Source: a virus
Strand: one strand, 5' to 3'
Virus record (IMG/VR): IMGVR_UViG_3300027749_000328
Span: 1-32,887 of that record
Length of the DNA stretch: 32,887 nucleotides
This document shows, one piece after another, positions 1 through 32,887 of the stretch (the first letter of the stretch is position 1; the number at the start of each line of letters is the position of its first letter). The position numbers and the translations under genes were made by a program. The notes under the pieces are model-generated. The model ran no database searches and was not told the DNA's origin. It was given only the letters and a program-made list of their open reading frames with translations.

Positions 1-9
1 CTAACTTTT

Positions 10-20
10 ACGTTATATAA
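10..20 (+). promoter_or_regulatory. Late-block start motif, copy 1
   Basis: The 11-mer ACGTTATATAA ends two bases before the ATG at 23. Identical copies with the same two-base gap occur before the genes at 17675, 21018, 28145 and 31113, each the first gene of a block. Its core TTATATAA is self-complementary. It could be a phage-specific promoter element giving a leaderless or nearly leaderless message, or an RNA element controlling translation. The function is inferred; the repetition and spacing are seen directly. Confidence 0.6.
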
Positions 21-22
21 GT

Positions 23-367
23 ATGATAATTCTGAAAGACTATACTTATACACAAAATTTTAGATTTATGCCAAGAAGCAAAGATATAGCTTCAATGGTA
101 TTTATTGATGAATTAACAAATACTTCAACTACTATAAACAATCCAACTTTAGTAAGTGAGCGTTATTATATGCAGTTAGAAATAGATAATACATTTAGTT
201 TTTTAATTGATGGACATACATATCGTTTTAATTGTTTTGATGCAAATGGAGTGCCTTTATATCGTGATAAAATTATGTGTACAAACCAAGAAATAAAAGA
301 TTATACAATTAACAATGGTGACTATGTGGCAAACCATACAACAAACGATTTTGTAATTTATGAGTAA
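23..367 (+). CDS. Small conserved virion-region protein, unknown function
   Basis: This is a 114-residue protein of unrecognised family, without signal peptide or membrane segment. It begins two bases after the late-block motif and its stop overlaps the portal start by 8 bases, so the two are probably translationally coupled. A second copy at 31113-31457 differs at only about five residues although many bases differ, which points to selection on the protein. Its place between the tail-tube gene (seen in the downstream copy) and the portal suggests a structural or head-tail joining role. That is inference only. Confidence 0.75.
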   Translation: MIILKDYTYTQNFRFMPRSKDIASMVFIDELTNTSTTINNPTLVSERYYMQLEIDNTFSFLIDGHTYRFNCFDANGVPLYRDKIMCTNQEIKDYTINNGDYVANHTTNDFVIYE

Positions 368-2129
368 TATACACTTTATACAATTAGCAGACTATCAAGC
401 ACCTAAAATCACTGAAAATAAACGTGATGAATGGGTAGATTTTGGCGAGAATAACGATTACTATCAGTTTTTAATTGACAGATACAACGGAAGCACTACA
501 AATAATGCAGTAATAAATAATATTACTAAACTTATTTACGGAAAAGGATTGACTGCTAATGATTCAAATCGTAAACCTAATGAGTTTGCACAAATGAAAA
601 TGTTATTTTCTAAAGATACTATTAGAAAAATAACAAAGGATTTAAAATTATTGGGCGAGTTTAATTTGCAGTTAATCTACAATGACAAAAAAGATAAAAT
701 TGTAAGAGTTGAACATTTACCTACTAATTTAGTACGTAGTGAAAAATGTAATAAAGATGGAGTTGTAGAAGCTATTTACTATTCAGATAATTGGCAAGAC
801 ATTAAAAAGTTTGTACCTAAAAGATTACCATTATTTGGGTATGGTGCTAAAGGCGACAAATTAGAGGTTTTAAGAGTAGGTAATTACACAATAGGACAAA
901 AGTATTATAGTAATGTAGATTATGTCGGTGGAGTAAGTTATGCAACTTTAGAAGAAGAAATATCTAACTATTTAATTAATGAAGTACAAAACGGATTTTC
1001 AGGTACAAAAATAGTTAATTTTAATAATGGAGTTCCAACAGAAGAGCAACAATCTATAATACAATCAAAAGTTAAATCTACTTTAACAGGAAGCAAAGGT
1101 AAAAAGGTTATTGTTGCTTTTAATAGTGATGAAACTAAAAAAACTACTGTAGACGATATTCCATTAAATGATGCTCCAGAGCATTATAAATATTTGTCAG
1201 ATGAATGTTTAGCAAAAATTATGTTATCACATAATGTTACAAGTCCGTTACTTTTTGGAATTGCTACAAGTACAGGATTTAGTGCTAATGCTGATGAATT
1301 AAAAAATAGTTATATTCTTTTTGAAAATATGGTTATTAGACCATTTCAAGAATTAATTTGTGATGGTTTGGATAAAGTATTAGTTTTTAATCAAATCAGT
1401 CTTGATTTAGCGTTTAAACAACTTCAACCGCTTGATATAGATGGTGAATTAACTAAAGCATTAGATACACCTACACAAATGAGTTCACATACTTGTTTAA
1501 GCAAAGATTTAACTGATGAAGATGGAAATAATATACTTGAATTGTTAAAAGGTGAAAGTATAGATGAAGAATGGGAACTTGTTGATAAAAGAGAATATTC
1601 AGATAGCAATATTTCTATTGATGAATGGGCAAATTCTAAAATAAAAAATAAAGAAAATTTACTACAAAAGTTTGCTGGAGTTATAAAATCTTCACCAAGT
1701 GCAAAAAGTTCATTAGATAAAGGAAATTATAAAGTACGTTATGAATATTTTGAGAAGTATTCAAGTGGAAATTCAAGAGATTTTTGTAAACAAATGATAA
1801 AAAGAACTGCAAATGGAGTAGTTTACAGAAAAGAAGATATAGACCAAGCAAGTTTTCAAGGAGTTAATATTGAATTCGGACACGAAGGTCAGAATTATTC
1901 TTTATTTAAATTTAAGGGCGGTGTCAACTGTGGTCACGTTTGGAATGAAAATCTTTATAGATTAAAAACAAAAACTGATGGTACACCTTATGTAGATAAA
2001 GCATTAAGTTCAAGCGAAGAAGTACAATCTATTGCAGGTTATAATCCAAATCCAAGTGGATGGAGTGAAGCACAAATAGCACCAATAGATATGCCAAATA
2101 GAGGACATCACCCAAATTATAAAGGATAA
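360..2129 (+). CDS. Portal protein with C-terminal extra domain
   Basis: The protein has 589 residues. Roughly the first 400 resemble HK97/SPP1-type phage portals: an N-terminal alpha/beta region, then a helical stretch around residues 195-320 containing SHNVTSPLLFGI and a Q-rich end near 380. Portals form the dodecameric ring at the capsid vertex through which DNA is packaged and to which the tail attaches. Residues from about 400 to the end form an additional domain with a GVNCGHVW motif and a final MPNRGHHP motif, rich in Cys/His; similar extensions occur in Bacteroidetes phage proteins, but I cannot name the family. The start overlaps the preceding gene and the adaptor gene follows after 2 bases. 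The portal call rests on overall sequence character and on the adaptor downstream. A diverged partial copy starts at 31450. Confidence 0.8.
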   Translation: MSNIHFIQLADYQAPKITENKRDEWVDFGENNDYYQFLIDRYNGSTTNNAVINNITKLIYGKGLTANDSNRKPNEFAQMKMLFSKDTIRKITKDLKLLGEFNLQLIYNDKKDKIVRVEHLPTNLVRSEKCNKDGVVEAIYYSDNWQDIKKFVPKRLPLFGYGAKGDKLEVLRVGNYTIGQKYYSNVDYVGGVSYATLEEEISNYLINEVQNGFSGTKIVNFNNGVPTEEQQSIIQSKVKSTLTGSKGKKVIVAFNSDETKKTTVDDIPLNDAPEHYKYLSDECLAKIMLSHNVTSPLLFGIATSTGFSANADELKNSYILFENMVIRPFQELICDGLDKVLVFNQISLDLAFKQLQPLDIDGELTKALDTPTQMSSHTCLSKDLTDEDGNNILELLKGESIDEEWELVDKREYSDSNISIDEWANSKIKNKENLLQKFAGVIKSSPSAKSSLDKGNYKVRYEYFEKYSSGNSRDFCKQMIKRTANGVVYRKEDIDQASFQGVNIEFGHEGQNYSLFKFKGGVNCGHVWNENLYRLKTKTDGTPYVDKALSSSEEVQSIAGYNPNPSGWSEAQIAPIDMPNRGHHPNYKG

Positions 2130-10823: not shown

Positions 10824-11253
10824 AGATTTATTTATGATGTTACGTGAGCAAGAAGTTCAGACATCAAACTTTCTACCAAATAAGAAAGAGATCCAATTTA
10901 GCAGTAAGAAGTTTATTACTGAAGTTTTAGAAGCAGGTGAAGTTGATAAATTTGAGTTACTTGCACAAGCCAAAAGAATAGGTGAAGCATTGGATGTTAT
11001 TAATGAAGAACTGCTAAAAGTGATCCCACAAGAAAACTTTGAAGCATTTGGTTTAAAAGGTATATTCCGTAGTGGTGGCGATACTATTAACTATTCAGAA
11101 GATGCGATTTACGCAACAATAAAAAAAGATTTAGATGATAGGGCAGAATTATTGAAACTTGCTCTTAAACAAGACTTAATTGATGCGTATGGTAATGATG
11201 TACCTAAAGTTTCAACAACACCAAGAAAATCATCATTAGCTATTAGTTGGTAA
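10816..11253 (+). CDS. Early protein next to the putative SSB, unknown function
   Basis: This 145-residue protein has a helical N-terminal part, a central GIFRSGGDTINYSEDA segment (about residues 80-95), a helical stretch (DLDDRAELLKLALKQDLIDAYG) and a Ser-rich end (RKSSLAISW). Similar small proteins accompany recombination or ssDNA-binding genes in Bacteroidetes phages, but I cannot name a family. The promoter and leader of the next gene begin at its 3' end. Confidence 0.65.
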   Translation: MSKDLFMMLREQEVQTSNFLPNKKEIQFSSKKFITEVLEAGEVDKFELLAQAKRIGEALDVINEELLKVIPQENFEAFGLKGIFRSGGDTINYSEDAIYATIKKDLDDRAELLKLALKQDLIDAYGNDVPKVSTTPRKSSLAISW

Positions 11254-11277
11254 ATTAAAAAAAAATTATTATCTTTA
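11247..11277 (+). promoter_or_regulatory. Probable promoter of the SSB gene
   Basis: TTG at 11247-11249 and TATCTTTA at 11270-11277 are 20 bases apart. This is a near-consensus Bacteroidetes promoter (last base A instead of G in the -7 box). A structured leader follows within 20 bases, as at the other two leaders. Confidence 0.55.
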
Positions 11278-11293
11278 CATTTCATAATTAATC

Positions 11294-11325
11294 GATGCAA
11301 GGTTTGGGCATCTTAACTCCAAACC
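11294..11325 (+). promoter_or_regulatory. Structured leader 2, compact H-type pseudoknot before SSB gene
   Basis: GATGC (11294-11298) pairs with GCATC (11308-11312). GGTTTGG (11301-11307) pairs with CCAAACC (11319-11325). Loop 1 is AA, no base lies between the helices, and loop 3 is TTAACT. A 2-base loop crossing a 7-bp helix and a 6-base loop crossing a 5-bp helix fit standard H-type geometry. The ATG follows 19 bases later. The T4 gene 32 message carries an autoregulatory pseudoknot of the same kind. Confidence 0.65.
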
Positions 11326-11344
11326 ATAAATAAAAATAAATATT

Positions 11345-12019
11345 ATGAGTACTTCAAACCGCAGACAAGCGTTTGCACAACCACAAAGCAATCCATCAAC
11401 TAAATTTATTGAATGGAAATCAAACGACAAATGTTTTAGCTACTACGACAAAGAGGAGCAAAAAAACATTTCAATTCCTTTACCTTTTAAATTCCTGGTG
11501 CTTGATGAACTGCATACAATCAAAGGATGGAACGATGCAACTTCAAGCGCAATTTATTCCAACGAGGTTAAATTTATTTCAAAAGAAACTTTAACGGTAA
11601 AACCATTTAAAGGGAATGAAATAGCTAAAGGACTTTATAAAGATATTAAAGAAAAGATTGTTGCAGCAGGAGGACATTATACTAAAAGCATTTACATAAT
11701 GCTTGAAGATGGATCACTTGCAAATATACAACTAAAAGGTTCAGCAGTTCAAAAATGGGGCGATTTTACGCAAAAAACACGCAACAGATTGCCGGATGAA
11801 TGGGTGCAAGTAGCAAGTGCGTTAGATGGCAAAAAAGGAGCTGTTAAGTTTTGGACTCCAGAGTTTACATTTTTTAAATCGCTTTCTGAAAGCGAAATGG
11901 ATTTGGCAGATGAAGCGTTTAATATTTTAGAAGCTTATTTAAAAGCTTATTTAGTAAAAGCAGAGCCAATAATTGAAGATATTGATCCTATTGATAACGA
12001 TGAAGATTTAGAGTTTTAA
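11345..12019 (+). CDS. Putative single-stranded DNA-binding protein
   Basis: This 224-residue protein has a predicted OB-fold-type beta-rich body (PLPFKFLVLDELHTIKGW, then KFISKETLTVK) and a conserved-looking segment GGHYTKSIYIMLEDG near residue 110. Its end is markedly acidic, DIDPIDNDEDLEF. Acidic tails on replication ssDNA-binding proteins recruit other replication enzymes. It has its own promoter and leader, is followed by a strong terminator, and lies upstream of the primase-helicase. It would coat single-stranded DNA during replication and recombination. Alternative: another phage recombination accessory protein. The family is inferred from composition and context. Confidence 0.55.
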   Translation: MSTSNRRQAFAQPQSNPSTKFIEWKSNDKCFSYYDKEEQKNISIPLPFKFLVLDELHTIKGWNDATSSAIYSNEVKFISKETLTVKPFKGNEIAKGLYKDIKEKIVAAGGHYTKSIYIMLEDGSLANIQLKGSAVQKWGDFTQKTRNRLPDEWVQVASALDGKKGAVKFWTPEFTFFKSLSESEMDLADEAFNILEAYLKAYLVKAEPIIEDIDPIDNDEDLEF

Positions 12020-12043: not shown

Positions 12044-12073
12044 AAACCTCGCTGTAATGGCGGGGTTTTTTTT
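12044..12073 (+). terminator. Rho-independent terminator after the SSB gene
   Basis: A 9-bp stem (12044-12052 with 12060-12068, one wobble) with a 7-base loop is followed by T residues to 12073. It isolates the SSB unit from the control region downstream. Confidence 0.85.
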
Positions 12074-12311: not shown

Positions 12312-12319
12312 TATATTTG
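12312..12319 (+). promoter_or_regulatory. -7 element of the primase-helicase promoter
   Basis: TATATTTG, followed by C, matches the Bacteroidetes -7 box used at the two early promoters. The expected TTTG about 19 bases upstream is only TTAG at 12289-12292, so this promoter is weak or needs an activator, possibly acting from the AGTACAC boxes. Confidence 0.55.
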
Positions 12320-12329
12320 CAAGAATTGG

Positions 12330-12408
12330 AGTGGTAGCCAAATTAATAACTTATTACAGAACCTCATTACCACGCAACTACCACTGCTGGTAATGGGGTT
12401 TATTTTTT
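12330..12408 (+). promoter_or_regulatory. Structured leader 3, terminator-like hairpin with loop pairing
   Basis: AGTGGTAG (12330-12337) pairs with CTACCACT (12378-12385). A 13-bp stem with one wobble joins 12360-12372 to 12388-12400. The second partner of the first helix lies in the loop of this stem, again an a-b-a'-b' order. The 13-bp stem is followed by TTTATTTTTTTT-like sequence, as in an intrinsic terminator, 14 bases before the ATG at 12415. It may be an attenuator or a translational control element. Confidence 0.6.
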
Positions 12409-12414
12409 TTAACT

Positions 12415-14805
12415 ATGAATGTAACAATTTACAAAAAAGCAACGGATGTTTCTAATGGTTTTACAAAAGATGTAAAATTTTGTTTAGAACGAATTAGACA
12501 AGGTAAAAGCAAAGAAACCGTTGAATGGTTAAGAACTTTGAATAAAATAGAATATGATAAAAATAAAAGCAAATTACCTGGTGTATGTTTTAATGGTATT
12601 TTTGAATATAGATCACTTGCAGGAATTAAAGAACATTCGGGTTTAATAATATTAGATTTTGATAAATTTGATAGCGAGCAGGATGCAATAGATTTTAGGA
12701 ATTCTATTTCAGATGATGATTATATTTTTGCTGCTTGGATTTCACCAAGTGGTAAAGGAATAAAAGCTTTGGTTAAAATTCCAAAAGAAATAGAAAATCA
12801 TAAAGAATATTTTAAATCACTTAAAAATTATTATAATCATTCCAACTGGGATGATAGCGGATCAGATGTAAGTAGATTTTGTTTTGAGAGTTATGATGCA
12901 GATTTATATTTAAATGAGAATTCAAAAGAATGGAATAAAATAGATTTACCGGAAGTTGAAGATATTGGAAATAAAAATGTAACTATTCCAATAAAATCGG
13001 ATAGTTTAATAATTACAAATTTATTAAAATGGTTTGAAAAAAAGTATAGTATATCTAACGGTAATAGAAATAACAATTTATTTAAATTAGCATCTGCATT
13101 TAATGATTTTGGAATTAATAAAAATGTAGCAGAACAAACATTATTACAATTTCAAACAGAAGATTTTGATAGCAAAGAAATAATATCTTTGTTAAATTCT
13201 GCTTATAAAAAAACTAATCAATTTGGAACCAAATTTTTTGAAGATAAAAACATAAAACAAAAAATTGAAAAACAAATTAGAACAGGCAGAAATAGAAAAG
13301 AAGTTATTGATTATCATTCTGAATTTGATAAAAAAGAAATTGAAAAGTGCATTGATGAAATTAAAGATGAAATTTCAGTATCTGACTTTTGGTTTTACAA
13401 TGATAAAGGTAAAGTTAATTTAAGTCCACATAAATATAAATTTTGGCTACAACAAAATAATTTTTTTAAATATTTTCCTACTGATACTAATACTTATACT
13501 TTTATAAAAATCGAACAGAATTTAGTTGAAGAAACAAGCGAAAAGAGAATTAAAGATTTTGTTTTGGAAAATTTATTATCACGTGAAGATATTGGATTTA
13601 GTCCTTATGATTATATGGCTTCAAGTCCTAAATATTTTCAATCTGATTTTTTAAGTTTTTTAGAGAGTTCAGAAATAAATATAAAAGAAGATACCCAGGA
13701 GGAATGTTTTTTATATTTTAATAATTGTGTAGTAAAAATTACTGATAAAAATATAACAACCATTGATTATTTAGATTTAGACGGTTTTGTTTGGAAAAGA
13801 CAAATAGTAAATAGAGAATATAGCCAATTAGATCATCATAATTCAGTATTTAGAAATTTCCTTTGGTTAATATCCGGTCAAGATTCAGACAAGTATAATA
13901 GTTTTAAATCAGTAATAGGTTATTTATTACATTCTTTTAAAACTTCTGCCAATAATAAAGCAATTATTTTTAATGATGAAACTATTAGCGAAAATCCTAA
14001 TGGAGGAAGTGGAAAAGGTTTGTTTTGGAACGCATTAGCGCAAATGAAAAAAGTAAGCAGTATTGATGGGAAAACCTTTGAGTTTACCAAAAGTTTTCCT
14101 TATCAAACTGTATCTACTGACACCCAAATATTGGTATTTGATGATGTAAAAAAGAATTTTAATTTTGAGAGTTTATTTAGTTTAATTACAGAAGGTATTA
14201 CTTTGGAATATAAAGGTCAAGATGCAATTAAACTTCCAGTAACACAAAGTCCTAAAATATTAATTACTACAAATTATACTATTGGAGGAGTTGGCGGATC
14301 ATTTGAACGTAGAAAGTTTGAAGTTGAAATGTCTGATTATTTTAGTTACAAACATACACCATTGGACGAATTTGGGCATTTATTATTTGATGATTGGAAT
14401 GCAGATGAATGGTTAATGTTTGATAATTTTATGATACAATGCGTTCAATATTATTTATTAAATGGATTGACTAAACACGATTTTAAAAATTTAGAAGTTC
14501 GTAAATTTATTAAAAATACTTCTCACGAATTTTATGAATGGAGCAAACCCGATAATGCTGGCAAAAATGAAAATATTGAATTTAATATTAGATGCATTAA
14601 ACAAACATATTACGATAGTTTTATAAATGAATATCCCGATTTTAGAACTTATAAATTAAGTCAAAAAAGATTTACTCAATGGATTGAGCAATATTGCAAA
14701 TTTTATAAATATGAGTATTTAACAGGAAATTCAAATGGCCAACGTTGGTTTGAAATTATTAATAAAAATATTGAGCAGGAAAACGATAATGATATAGCAT
14801 TTTAA
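12415..14805 (+). CDS. Replication primase-helicase (BT4734/VirE-N domain plus SF3-like helicase)
   Basis: The protein has 796 residues. Residues about 1-175 resemble the BT4734/VirE N-terminal domain (LPGVCFNGIFEYRS, SGLIILDFDKF, AAWISPSGKGIKALVKI, DVSRFCFESYD), which in related proteins accompanies priming. Residues about 185-280 resemble a primase C-terminal linker. The helicase core has Walker A NPNGGSGKG (527-535), Walker B ILVFDDV (572-578), a sensor-type ILITTNYT (615-622) and an Arg pair (FERRKFEVEM) that may act as arginine finger. This is the likely replication initiator and unwinding enzyme. No phage DNA polymerase is seen, so host polymerase is probably recruited. It is preceded by structured leader 3 and the AGTACAC boxes. 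Confidence 0.8.
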   Translation: MNVTIYKKATDVSNGFTKDVKFCLERIRQGKSKETVEWLRTLNKIEYDKNKSKLPGVCFNGIFEYRSLAGIKEHSGLIILDFDKFDSEQDAIDFRNSISDDDYIFAAWISPSGKGIKALVKIPKEIENHKEYFKSLKNYYNHSNWDDSGSDVSRFCFESYDADLYLNENSKEWNKIDLPEVEDIGNKNVTIPIKSDSLIITNLLKWFEKKYSISNGNRNNNLFKLASAFNDFGINKNVAEQTLLQFQTEDFDSKEIISLLNSAYKKTNQFGTKFFEDKNIKQKIEKQIRTGRNRKEVIDYHSEFDKKEIEKCIDEIKDEISVSDFWFYNDKGKVNLSPHKYKFWLQQNNFFKYFPTDTNTYTFIKIEQNLVEETSEKRIKDFVLENLLSREDIGFSPYDYMASSPKYFQSDFLSFLESSEINIKEDTQEECFLYFNNCVVKITDKNITTIDYLDLDGFVWKRQIVNREYSQLDHHNSVFRNFLWLISGQDSDKYNSFKSVIGYLLHSFKTSANNKAIIFNDETISENPNGGSGKGLFWNALAQMKKVSSIDGKTFEFTKSFPYQTVSTDTQILVFDDVKKNFNFESLFSLITEGITLEYKGQDAIKLPVTQSPKILITTNYTIGGVGGSFERRKFEVEMSDYFSYKHTPLDEFGHLLFDDWNADEWLMFDNFMIQCVQYYLLNGLTKHDFKNLEVRKFIKNTSHEFYEWSKPDNAGKNENIEFNIRCIKQTYYDSFINEYPDFRTYKLSQKRFTQWIEQYCKFYKYEYLTGNSNGQRWFEIINKNIEQENDNDIAF

Positions 14806-31078: not shown

Positions 31079-31099
31079 AGAAACAAAATACTAACTTTT

Positions 31100-31110
31100 A
31101 CGTTATATAA
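31100..31110 (+). promoter_or_regulatory. Late-block start motif, copy 5
   Basis: The same 11-mer, two bases before the ATG at 31113 and corresponding to copy 1. Here the upstream context is visible: terminator, then TAGAAACAAAATA at 31078-31090, shared with copy 4. Confidence 0.6.
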
Positions 31111-31112
31111 GT

Positions 31113-31457
31113 ATGATAATTTTAAAAGATTACACATACAGTCAAAATTTTAGATTTATGCCAAGAAGTAAAGATATTGCTTCAATGGTATTTATTGATG
31201 AATTAACAAACACTTCAACAACAATAAACAATCCTACTTTAGTAAGTGAGCGTTATTATATGCAGTTAGAAATCAATAGTACATTTAGTTTTCTAATTGA
31301 TGGGCATACTTACAGATTTAATTGTTTTGATGCTCATGGAGTACCTTTGTACCGAGATAAGATAATGTGTACAAATCAAGAAATAAAAGATTATACTATT
31401 AATAATGGTGACTATATAGCAAACCATACAACGAATGATTTTGTAATTTATGAGTAA
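31113..31457 (+). CDS. Second copy of the small virion-region protein
   Basis: This is 114 residues, homologous to the gene at 23-367 with about five conservative amino-acid changes (for example Thr to Ser at residue 10 and Val to Ile near the end). Here its true upstream neighbours are visible: the tail tube gene and its terminator. This supports placing the gene at the start of the portal block. Confidence 0.75.
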   Translation: MIILKDYTYSQNFRFMPRSKDIASMVFIDELTNTSTTINNPTLVSERYYMQLEINSTFSFLIDGHTYRFNCFDAHGVPLYRDKIMCTNQEIKDYTINNGDYIANHTTNDFVIYE

Positions 31458-32887
31458 TATACACTTTATACAATTAGCAGATTACCAAGCACCTAAAATC
31501 ACTGAAAATAAACGTGATGAATGGGTTGATTTTGGTGATAATAATGATTACTATCAGTTTTTAATTGACAGATATAACGGAAGTACTACAAATAATGCAG
31601 TAATAAATAATATTACTAAACTTATTTATGGAAAAGGATTGACTGCTAACGATGCAAATCGTAAACCTAATGAGTTTGCACAAATGAAAATGTTGTTTTC
31701 TAAAGATACTATTAGAAAAATAACAAAGGATTTAAAATTATTAGGTGAGTTTAATCTGCAGTTAATCTACAATGAAAAGAAAGATAAGATTGTAAGAGTT
31801 GAACATTTACCTACTAATTTAGTTAGAAGTGAAAAATGTAATAAAGATGGAGTTGTAGAAGCGATTTATTATTCAGATAATTGGGAAGATATTAAGAAAT
31901 TCCCACCTAAAAGAATTTCTTTATTTGGCTACGGAAGTAAGACAGAAAAACTCGAGATTTTGCGGGTGGGCAATTATACAATAGGTCAAAAGTATTATTC
32001 TAATGTTGATTATATTGGTGGAGTAAGTTACGCAGCTTTAGAAGAAGAAATATCTAACTATTTGATTAACGAAGTTCAAAACGGATTTTCAGGTACAAAA
32101 ATAGTTAATTTTAATAATGGAGTTCCAACAGAGGAACAACAATCTATTATTCAATCTAAAGTTAAATCTACTTTAACAGGAAGCAAAGGTAAAAAGGTAA
32201 TAGTTGCATTTAATTCGGATGAAACTAAAAAAACTACTGTAGATGATATTCCATTAAACGATGCACCTGAACATTACAAATATTTATCCGATGAATGTTT
32301 GGCTAAAATAATGTTATCGCATAATGTAACAAGTCCTTTACTTTTTGGAATTGCAACATCAACAGGATTTAGTGCTAATGCAGATGAGTTAAAAAATAGT
32401 TATATTCTTTTTGAAAATATGGTTATTAGACCATTTCAAGAGTTAATTTGTGATGGGTTAGATAAAGTGTTAGCTTTTAATGAAATTAGCTTGGATTTAG
32501 CGTTTAAACAACTTCAACCGCTTGATATAGATGGTGAATTAACTAAAGCATTAGATACACCAACACAAATGAGTTCACATACTTGTTTAAGCAAAGATTT
32601 AACTGATGAAGATGGAAATAATATACTTGAATTATTAAAAGGTGAAAGTATAGATGATGAATGGGAGCTTGTTGATAAAAGAGAATATTCAGATAGCAAT
32701 ATTTCTATTGATGAATGGGCAAATTCTAAAATAAAAAATAAAGAAAATATACTACAAAAATTTGCTGGAGTTATAAAATCTTCACCAAGTGCAAAAAGTT
32801 CATTAGATAAAGGAAATTATAAAGTACGTTATGAATATTTTGAGAAGTATTCAAGTGGAAATTCAAGAGATTTTTGTAAACAAATGA
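31450..32887 (+). CDS. Portal protein, second copy, truncated by window end
   Basis: About 479 codons are present and the reading frame is open to the end of the window. It parallels 360-1797. Amino-acid differences cluster in one short stretch (first copy KKFVPKRLPLFGYGAKGDK, second KKFPPKRISLFGYGSKTEK) and are sparse elsewhere. The last third is almost identical in DNA. It is intact as far as seen, so either a real second portal allele or a strain variant joined in assembly. Confidence 0.8.
   Translation, partial: MSNIHFIQLADYQAPKITENKRDEWVDFGDNNDYYQFLIDRYNGSTTNNAVINNITKLIYGKGLTANDANRKPNEFAQMKMLFSKDTIRKITKDLKLLGEFNLQLIYNEKKDKIVRVEHLPTNLVRSEKCNKDGVVEAIYYSDNWEDIKKFPPKRISLFGYGSKTEKLEILRVGNYTIGQKYYSNVDYIGGVSYAALEEEISNYLINEVQNGFSGTKIVNFNNGVPTEEQQSIIQSKVKSTLTGSKGKKVIVAFNSDETKKTTVDDIPLNDAPEHYKYLSDECLAKIMLSHNVTSPLLFGIATSTGFSANADELKNSYILFENMVIRPFQELICDGLDKVLAFNEISLDLAFKQLQPLDIDGELTKALDTPTQMSSHTCLSKDLTDEDGNNILELLKGESIDDEWELVDKREYSDSNISIDEWANSKIKNKENILQKFAGVIKSSPSAKSSLDKGNYKVRYEYFEKYSSGNSRDFCKQM

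Follow-up and report, generated by a model that had tools for sequence, protein, structure and literature searches.

In T4 a pseudoknot in the leader of gene 32 nucleates the cooperative binding of gp32 over an A/U-rich UUAAA/UAAA tract extending as far as the ribosome-binding site, and gp32 still recognises this operator when its sequence has diverged, as is the case for RB69 (PMC535899; PMC3014915). A pseudoknot near ssDNA-binding protein (SSB) genes has also been described as the STAXI RNA (RF01728; PMC2864571). A literature search, in which subscription journals were thinly covered, found no phage case outside the T4-like phages.

The window, that is the whole viral stretch of 32,887 nt that was analysed, contains an H-type pseudoknot on its + strand at 11294-11325, exactly where the original prediction had placed one before a putative SSB gene and with the stems and loop sizes it had given. 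Base for base it reads GATGC-AA-GGTTTGG-GCATC-TTAACT-CCAAACC, which gives a stem 1 of 5 bp, a loop 1 of 2 nt, a stem 2 of 7 bp, no inter-helix nucleotide and a loop 3 of 6 nt (5/2/7/0/6 in the order used below), and it spans -51 to -20 relative to the ATG at 11345. The features of the region are as follows, all on the + strand.

11247-11249, +, putative -33 promoter element TTG (TTG, 20 nt, then TATCTTTA), which overlaps the upstream gene at its end
11270-11277, +, putative -7 promoter box TATCTTTA, with box-like sequence in relatives
11294-11298, +, stem 1, 5' strand GATGC (sequence, and covariation among relatives)
11299-11300, +, loop 1, AA (first base an invariant A and the second nearly so in 34 distinct sequences)
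11301-11307, +, stem 2, 5' strand GGTTTGG (sequence, and covariation among relatives)
11308-11312, +, stem 1, 3' strand GCATC (compensatory changes at all 5 stem 1 pairs)
11313-11318, +, loop 3, TTAACT, 6 nt (length 6 in nearly all relatives)
11319-11325, +, stem 2, 3' strand CCAAACC (sequence, and covariation among relatives)
11326-11344, +, unstructured A/U-rich spacer of 19 nt with three UAAA, running to the start codon (from sequence)
11345-12019, +, gene for a 224-aa probable OB-fold ssDNA-binding protein with the acidic C-terminal tip DEDLEF, PHROG 6706
12045-12073, +, terminator-like hairpin AACCTCGC/GCGGGGTT with a T-run, apparently closing a one-gene transcription unit (from sequence)

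A single sequence of this kind says little by itself, as each strand of the window contains about 30 perfect 5+7 pseudoknots when G-U pairs are allowed. The knot at 11294-11325 ranks first by stacking energy on both strands (-21.7 kcal/mol), and of 100 dinucleotide-shuffled versions of the + strand only 2 match it; in our reading it is the comparative evidence that settles the reality of the knot and not the lone sequence. The first 80 homologous loci, taken from viral metagenomes and encoding relatives of the downstream protein, all share the layout, one of them (L072) only in a degraded form. With the window included, 66 of the 81 leaders have 5+7 perfect pairs and a loop 3 of 6 nt, one has 5+7 perfect pairs and a loop 3 of 8 nt, 13 have a single T-T in stem 2, and the L072 leader has two stem 2 mismatches. 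These caused the scanner to miss it, and in the tree described below it was scored manually as carrying a degraded knot.

Within this shape the stems have turned over. Stem 1 is found as GATGC/GCATC, GCTCG/CGAGC, GGAGC/GCTCC, AGGGT/GCCCT, GTTGG/CCAAC and AATGC/GCATT, and the 5' strand of stem 2 as GGTTTGG, GGCTTTC, GGTTTCA, GGGTTTC, GGGGTGG and others, each with its own complement; only the A of loop 1 and the first stem 2 pairs are near invariant. Among the 34 distinct sequences 98.8% of the cells are paired and 10 of the 12 pairs have changed on both sides, including every stem 1 pair, values that sliding the partners destroys and neither of which was reached in any of 500 shuffles. Both stems thus form, with covariation, in the leaders of homologous phages, the comparison that had been proposed as a check, and it is beyond reasonable doubt that the knot is a real conserved RNA. 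A-C on one strand is G-U on the other, and the sense strand has 32 G-U cells and no A-C cells; the selected molecule is therefore the mRNA. The T-T of the 13 relatives (L008-L012, L015-L018, L021, L037, L057 and L068) is always at the third stem 2 pair, and it recurs in L291 despite other stem sequences; we read it as a U-U that may be tolerated or favoured and not as decay.

The knot is tied to one gene. A scan of viral contigs with the pattern GATGCAAGGNNNNNGCATCNTAA, which ignores both the protein and the 3' strand of stem 2, gave 109 stretches, 107 of which are followed by the same SSB-like gene and have a stem 2 in which 6 or more of the 7 pairs form. In the two without the SSB gene (L086 and L172) stem 2 is absent, and these were set aside as chance matches. 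The upstream neighbour varies, with 24 to over 700 nt between its stop and the knot, and the distance from knot to ATG is steady at 15-20 nt. Almost certainly, then, the knot is a cis-regulator of the SSB-like gene downstream. The knot is also present at three loci in assembled bacterial genomes (L191-L193), of which two are labelled Flavobacterium and one Bacteroidetes, and the phage family that carries it infects Flavobacterium-like bacteria.

In 76 of the 81 leaders a -7-like box precedes the knot by 10-17 nt, the Bacteroidetes promoter consensus being TTTG/TANNTTTG (PMC6847099), which would place the knot about 10 nt from the predicted transcription start and near the 5' end of the mRNA. 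The lone transcription unit, as delimited by the putative -33 and -7 boxes and the terminator-like hairpin, would suit a gene that tunes itself. Five loci (L020, L046 and L079-L081) keep the knot and have no -7-like box in the preceding 70 nt; their upstream gene mostly differs, and their promoter may be further away or of another type.

Beyond these relatives, a sister clade with 46% or less identity to the window protein has the same layout as 4/2/7/0/4-5 with unrelated stem sequences (for example GCCG-GA-GCGCTTA-CGGC-AACTT-TAAGCGT and TCCG-AA-GCGGTTA-CGGA-AAAA-TAATCGT), placed at -47 to -49 and with compensatory changes of its own, as seen in only six sequences. Knots with yet other sequences are present at five single loci (L255, L274, L307, L308 and L309). 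About half of the wider protein family is without the knot. On a tree of 62 proteins, whose root is uncertain and which has several long branches, the knot trait needs two changes; a single gain and one loss, the latter in the L200-L202 group, could account for them. The gene of L200 and L202 starts 4-5 nt behind its upstream neighbour, and in the knot-less clades several genes lie 2-5 nt behind theirs. Two further scanner positives, L220 and L245, were rejected as chance, being either rich in A/T, out of position and with a loop 3 of 8 nt, or mismatched and far upstream inside another gene. A homologue ending in DLPF and without a knot is also found in L195, a contig labelled Candidatus Nitrosotalea from an archaeal bin, which is probably a mis-binned phage contig.

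The original prediction had likened the knot to that of T4 gene 32, and the likeness is closer than was claimed. The same scanner reads the T4 leader as TGCC-A-GCTATGA-GGTA-AAGTG-TCATAGC at -67, or 4/1/7/0/5, which is nearly identical to the 4/2/7/0/4-5 of the sister clade and is to be compared with 5/2/7/0/6 in the clade of the window. Shared with gene 32 of T4, T2 and RB69 are the 7-bp stem 2, the absence of inter-helix nucleotides, a loop 1 of 1-2 nt and a loop 3 of 5-6 nt, the position in the 5' leader of an SSB gene (here a probable one), a shape that is kept as the sequence diverges, and the order of knot, A/U-rich unstructured tract and start codon. In contrast to T4, the A/U tract is 19 nt long in the window and about 40 in T4, the 5' end would come from a putative promoter whereas in T4 it comes from RNase E processing, the hosts are of the Flavobacterium type with no Shine-Dalgarno, and the SSB has neither detectable homology to gp32 nor its zinc site. 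The STAXI RNA, whilst it is likewise a pseudoknot near ssDNA-binding protein genes, forms tandem arrays with UUCG loops, is found in Enterobacteriales and is not restricted to one gene; tandem repetition two or more times is part of its definition, and every locus read here has one knot per leader at a fixed distance from the ATG. What is new is a leader with the build and place of that of gene 32, before a probable SSB whose sequence has no detectable similarity to gp32, in another host phylum and with another grammar of translation start.

The protein itself is matched by the profile of PHROG 6706, a family of unknown function, at E 2.5e-33, as are 30 of 30 members of its family, and searches of Pfam, NCBIfam and PHROGs named no function. 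A sequence search of the PDB gave only an unconvincing phosphorylase match, and none with a deeper profile. An AlphaFold model built from a 50-sequence alignment has a pLDDT of 86.7 (an earlier one from a shallow alignment, with a pLDDT of 62, was discarded), and whilst Foldseek found nothing in the PDB at E below 0.001, structural comparison placed a phiC31 integrase-RDF chain first (Z 7.2 over 151 residues) and the RB69 gp32 core second (Z 5.6, 148 residues, 4.8 A), followed mainly by ssDNA-binding OB proteins such as BRCA2, RPA, POT1 and mitochondrial SSB. Structure prediction, which had been suggested as a check for an OB fold, thus gives an OB-like model with the RB69 gp32 core among its matches, suggestive only as all Z are under 8 and by themselves no proof of fold. 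An RDF also appears weakly in a viral library search; no sequence link was found, on an unsystematic reading no integrase was noticed in the window, and the match, at a Z below 8, may reflect a shared fold only. Nearly all homologues end in an acidic tip of the SSB type, DDL(E/P)F, a primase-helicase gene starting at 12415 adjoins the SSB-like gene in the window, and distant mycobacteriophage homologues sit before DNA polymerase/primase. Taking predicted fold, tail motif and gene context together, the protein is very probably an SSB. It had been described as unrelated-looking, and indeed comparison of profiles gives a probability of 0.1% for homology to T4 gp32. The zinc site of gp32 consists of three Cys and one His; the window protein has one cysteine and therefore no zinc site of that type.

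The best explanation for the leader, and one that we hold to be fairly likely, is autogenous translational repression by the encoded SSB nucleated on the knot, as in T4. Once the infected cell has more SSB than free ssDNA, a monomer would recognise the shape of the knot, namely the loop 1 adenines, the coaxial 5+7 bp and loop 3, and more SSBs would then bind cooperatively along the 19 nt of unstructured A/U-rich RNA next to it. This coating would block the loading of 30S subunits at a start region which lacks a Shine-Dalgarno and would depend on unpaired adenines, so that the level of SSB would be self-set against ssDNA, as is that of gp32 in T4. Flavobacterium start regions generally favour unpaired, A-rich sequence (PMC6847099), and from this we infer that coating by SSB would be an effective block. 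Neither of the two findings that had been named as able to refute the T4-like interpretation came up, as the leaders of homologues form both stems and the protein model is OB-like. The spacer lends the interpretation little weight: the AT-rich stretch proposed as the SSB-binding tract is present, at 19 nt, but an A/U-rich, UAAA-bearing spacer is ordinary for Flavobacterium start regions (PMC6847099) and its three UAAA are matched by other genes of the window. Enrichment of UAAA was accordingly dropped as a T4-like signature.

The main rival, which we consider unlikely, is that the knot is an element for 5'-end stability or translation standby to which no SSB binds, and which would protect the message of a strongly expressed early protein from 5' decay or assist the loading of ribosomes. 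The proximity of the knot to the predicted transcription start would suit such a role, the transcripts of T4 gene 32 are the most stable of T4 mRNAs (PMC3014915), and a pseudoknot is reported to be required in standby-mediated translation of tisB (PMC7708055). A generic element would however be expected before other genes, and it is disfavoured because the knot is found before one gene only, with all 107 intact hits preceding the SSB-like gene and every other knot on the two strands of the window less stable; moreover a plain hairpin would be enough for 5' protection, for which the strict loop sizes are unneeded.

Less probable again is an operator for another protein, whether a regulator of the phage other than the SSB or an RNA-binding protein of the host. 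A cis-acting RNA of conserved shape would look the same whichever protein reads it, but the knot stays with the SSB-like gene though what lies upstream, and how far away, differs widely, and autoregulation requires no second conserved partner. A small-molecule riboswitch of the preQ1-I size class would be similar in size, H-type topology and leader position, and is nonetheless very improbable, as the gene is not metabolic and the stems vary freely, leaving in the loop 1 A and the first stem 2 pairs too little for a ligand pocket. Nor did Rfam give a match at 11294-11325 (E up to 5) or, at gathering score, anywhere in the window or at the T4 and sister-clade loci, the T4 gene 32 knot likewise having no match. 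That the element acts as folded single-stranded DNA during replication, an idea earlier raised for STAXI (PMC2864571) and suggested by a downstream protein that probably binds ssDNA, is scarcely credible given its fixed place between promoter box and ATG, and is largely refuted by the excess of G-U over A-C on the sense strand.

Two other features of the window are of note. A second, larger leader of pseudoknot type lies at 12312-12414, before the primase-helicase gene, in the order a-b-a'-b': AGTGGTAG at 12330-12337, CCTCATTACC at 12362-12371, CTACCACT at 12378-12385 and GGTAATGGGG at 12389-12398, followed by a T-run. It begins just after a TATATTTG box, and many relatives keep its topology with different stems, such as CTCTCTGA/TCAGAGAG with AATCCCATAA/TTATGGGATT and CTGGAAG/CTTCCAG with AATGCCACTC/GAGTGGCATT; it has no match in Rfam and has the look of an attenuator or operator RNA, as yet unnamed, that belongs to phage replication genes. 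The two ends of the window (1-1797 and 31091-32887) repeat one region at 91.8% identity, suggesting that the genome is circularly permuted and that the assembly, drawn from two strain variants, ran on beyond its starting point.

Returning to autogenous repression, its wider form, that in about half of this family the SSB controls its own synthesis through a gene 32-type knot recognised by shape only, a shape preserved while the stem sequences were completely replaced, and that this is convergent with T4 or goes back to an undetectably old ancestor, we put at slightly better than even. If true, this would be a second, sequence-unrelated case, and SSBs would appear to settle repeatedly on the same RNA shape. 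The question of how a sequence-indifferent SSB selects one mRNA would become open to comparative experiment, with dozens of natural operator variants at hand, and knot-based repression would be extended to Bacteroidetes hosts, which initiate translation without a Shine-Dalgarno.
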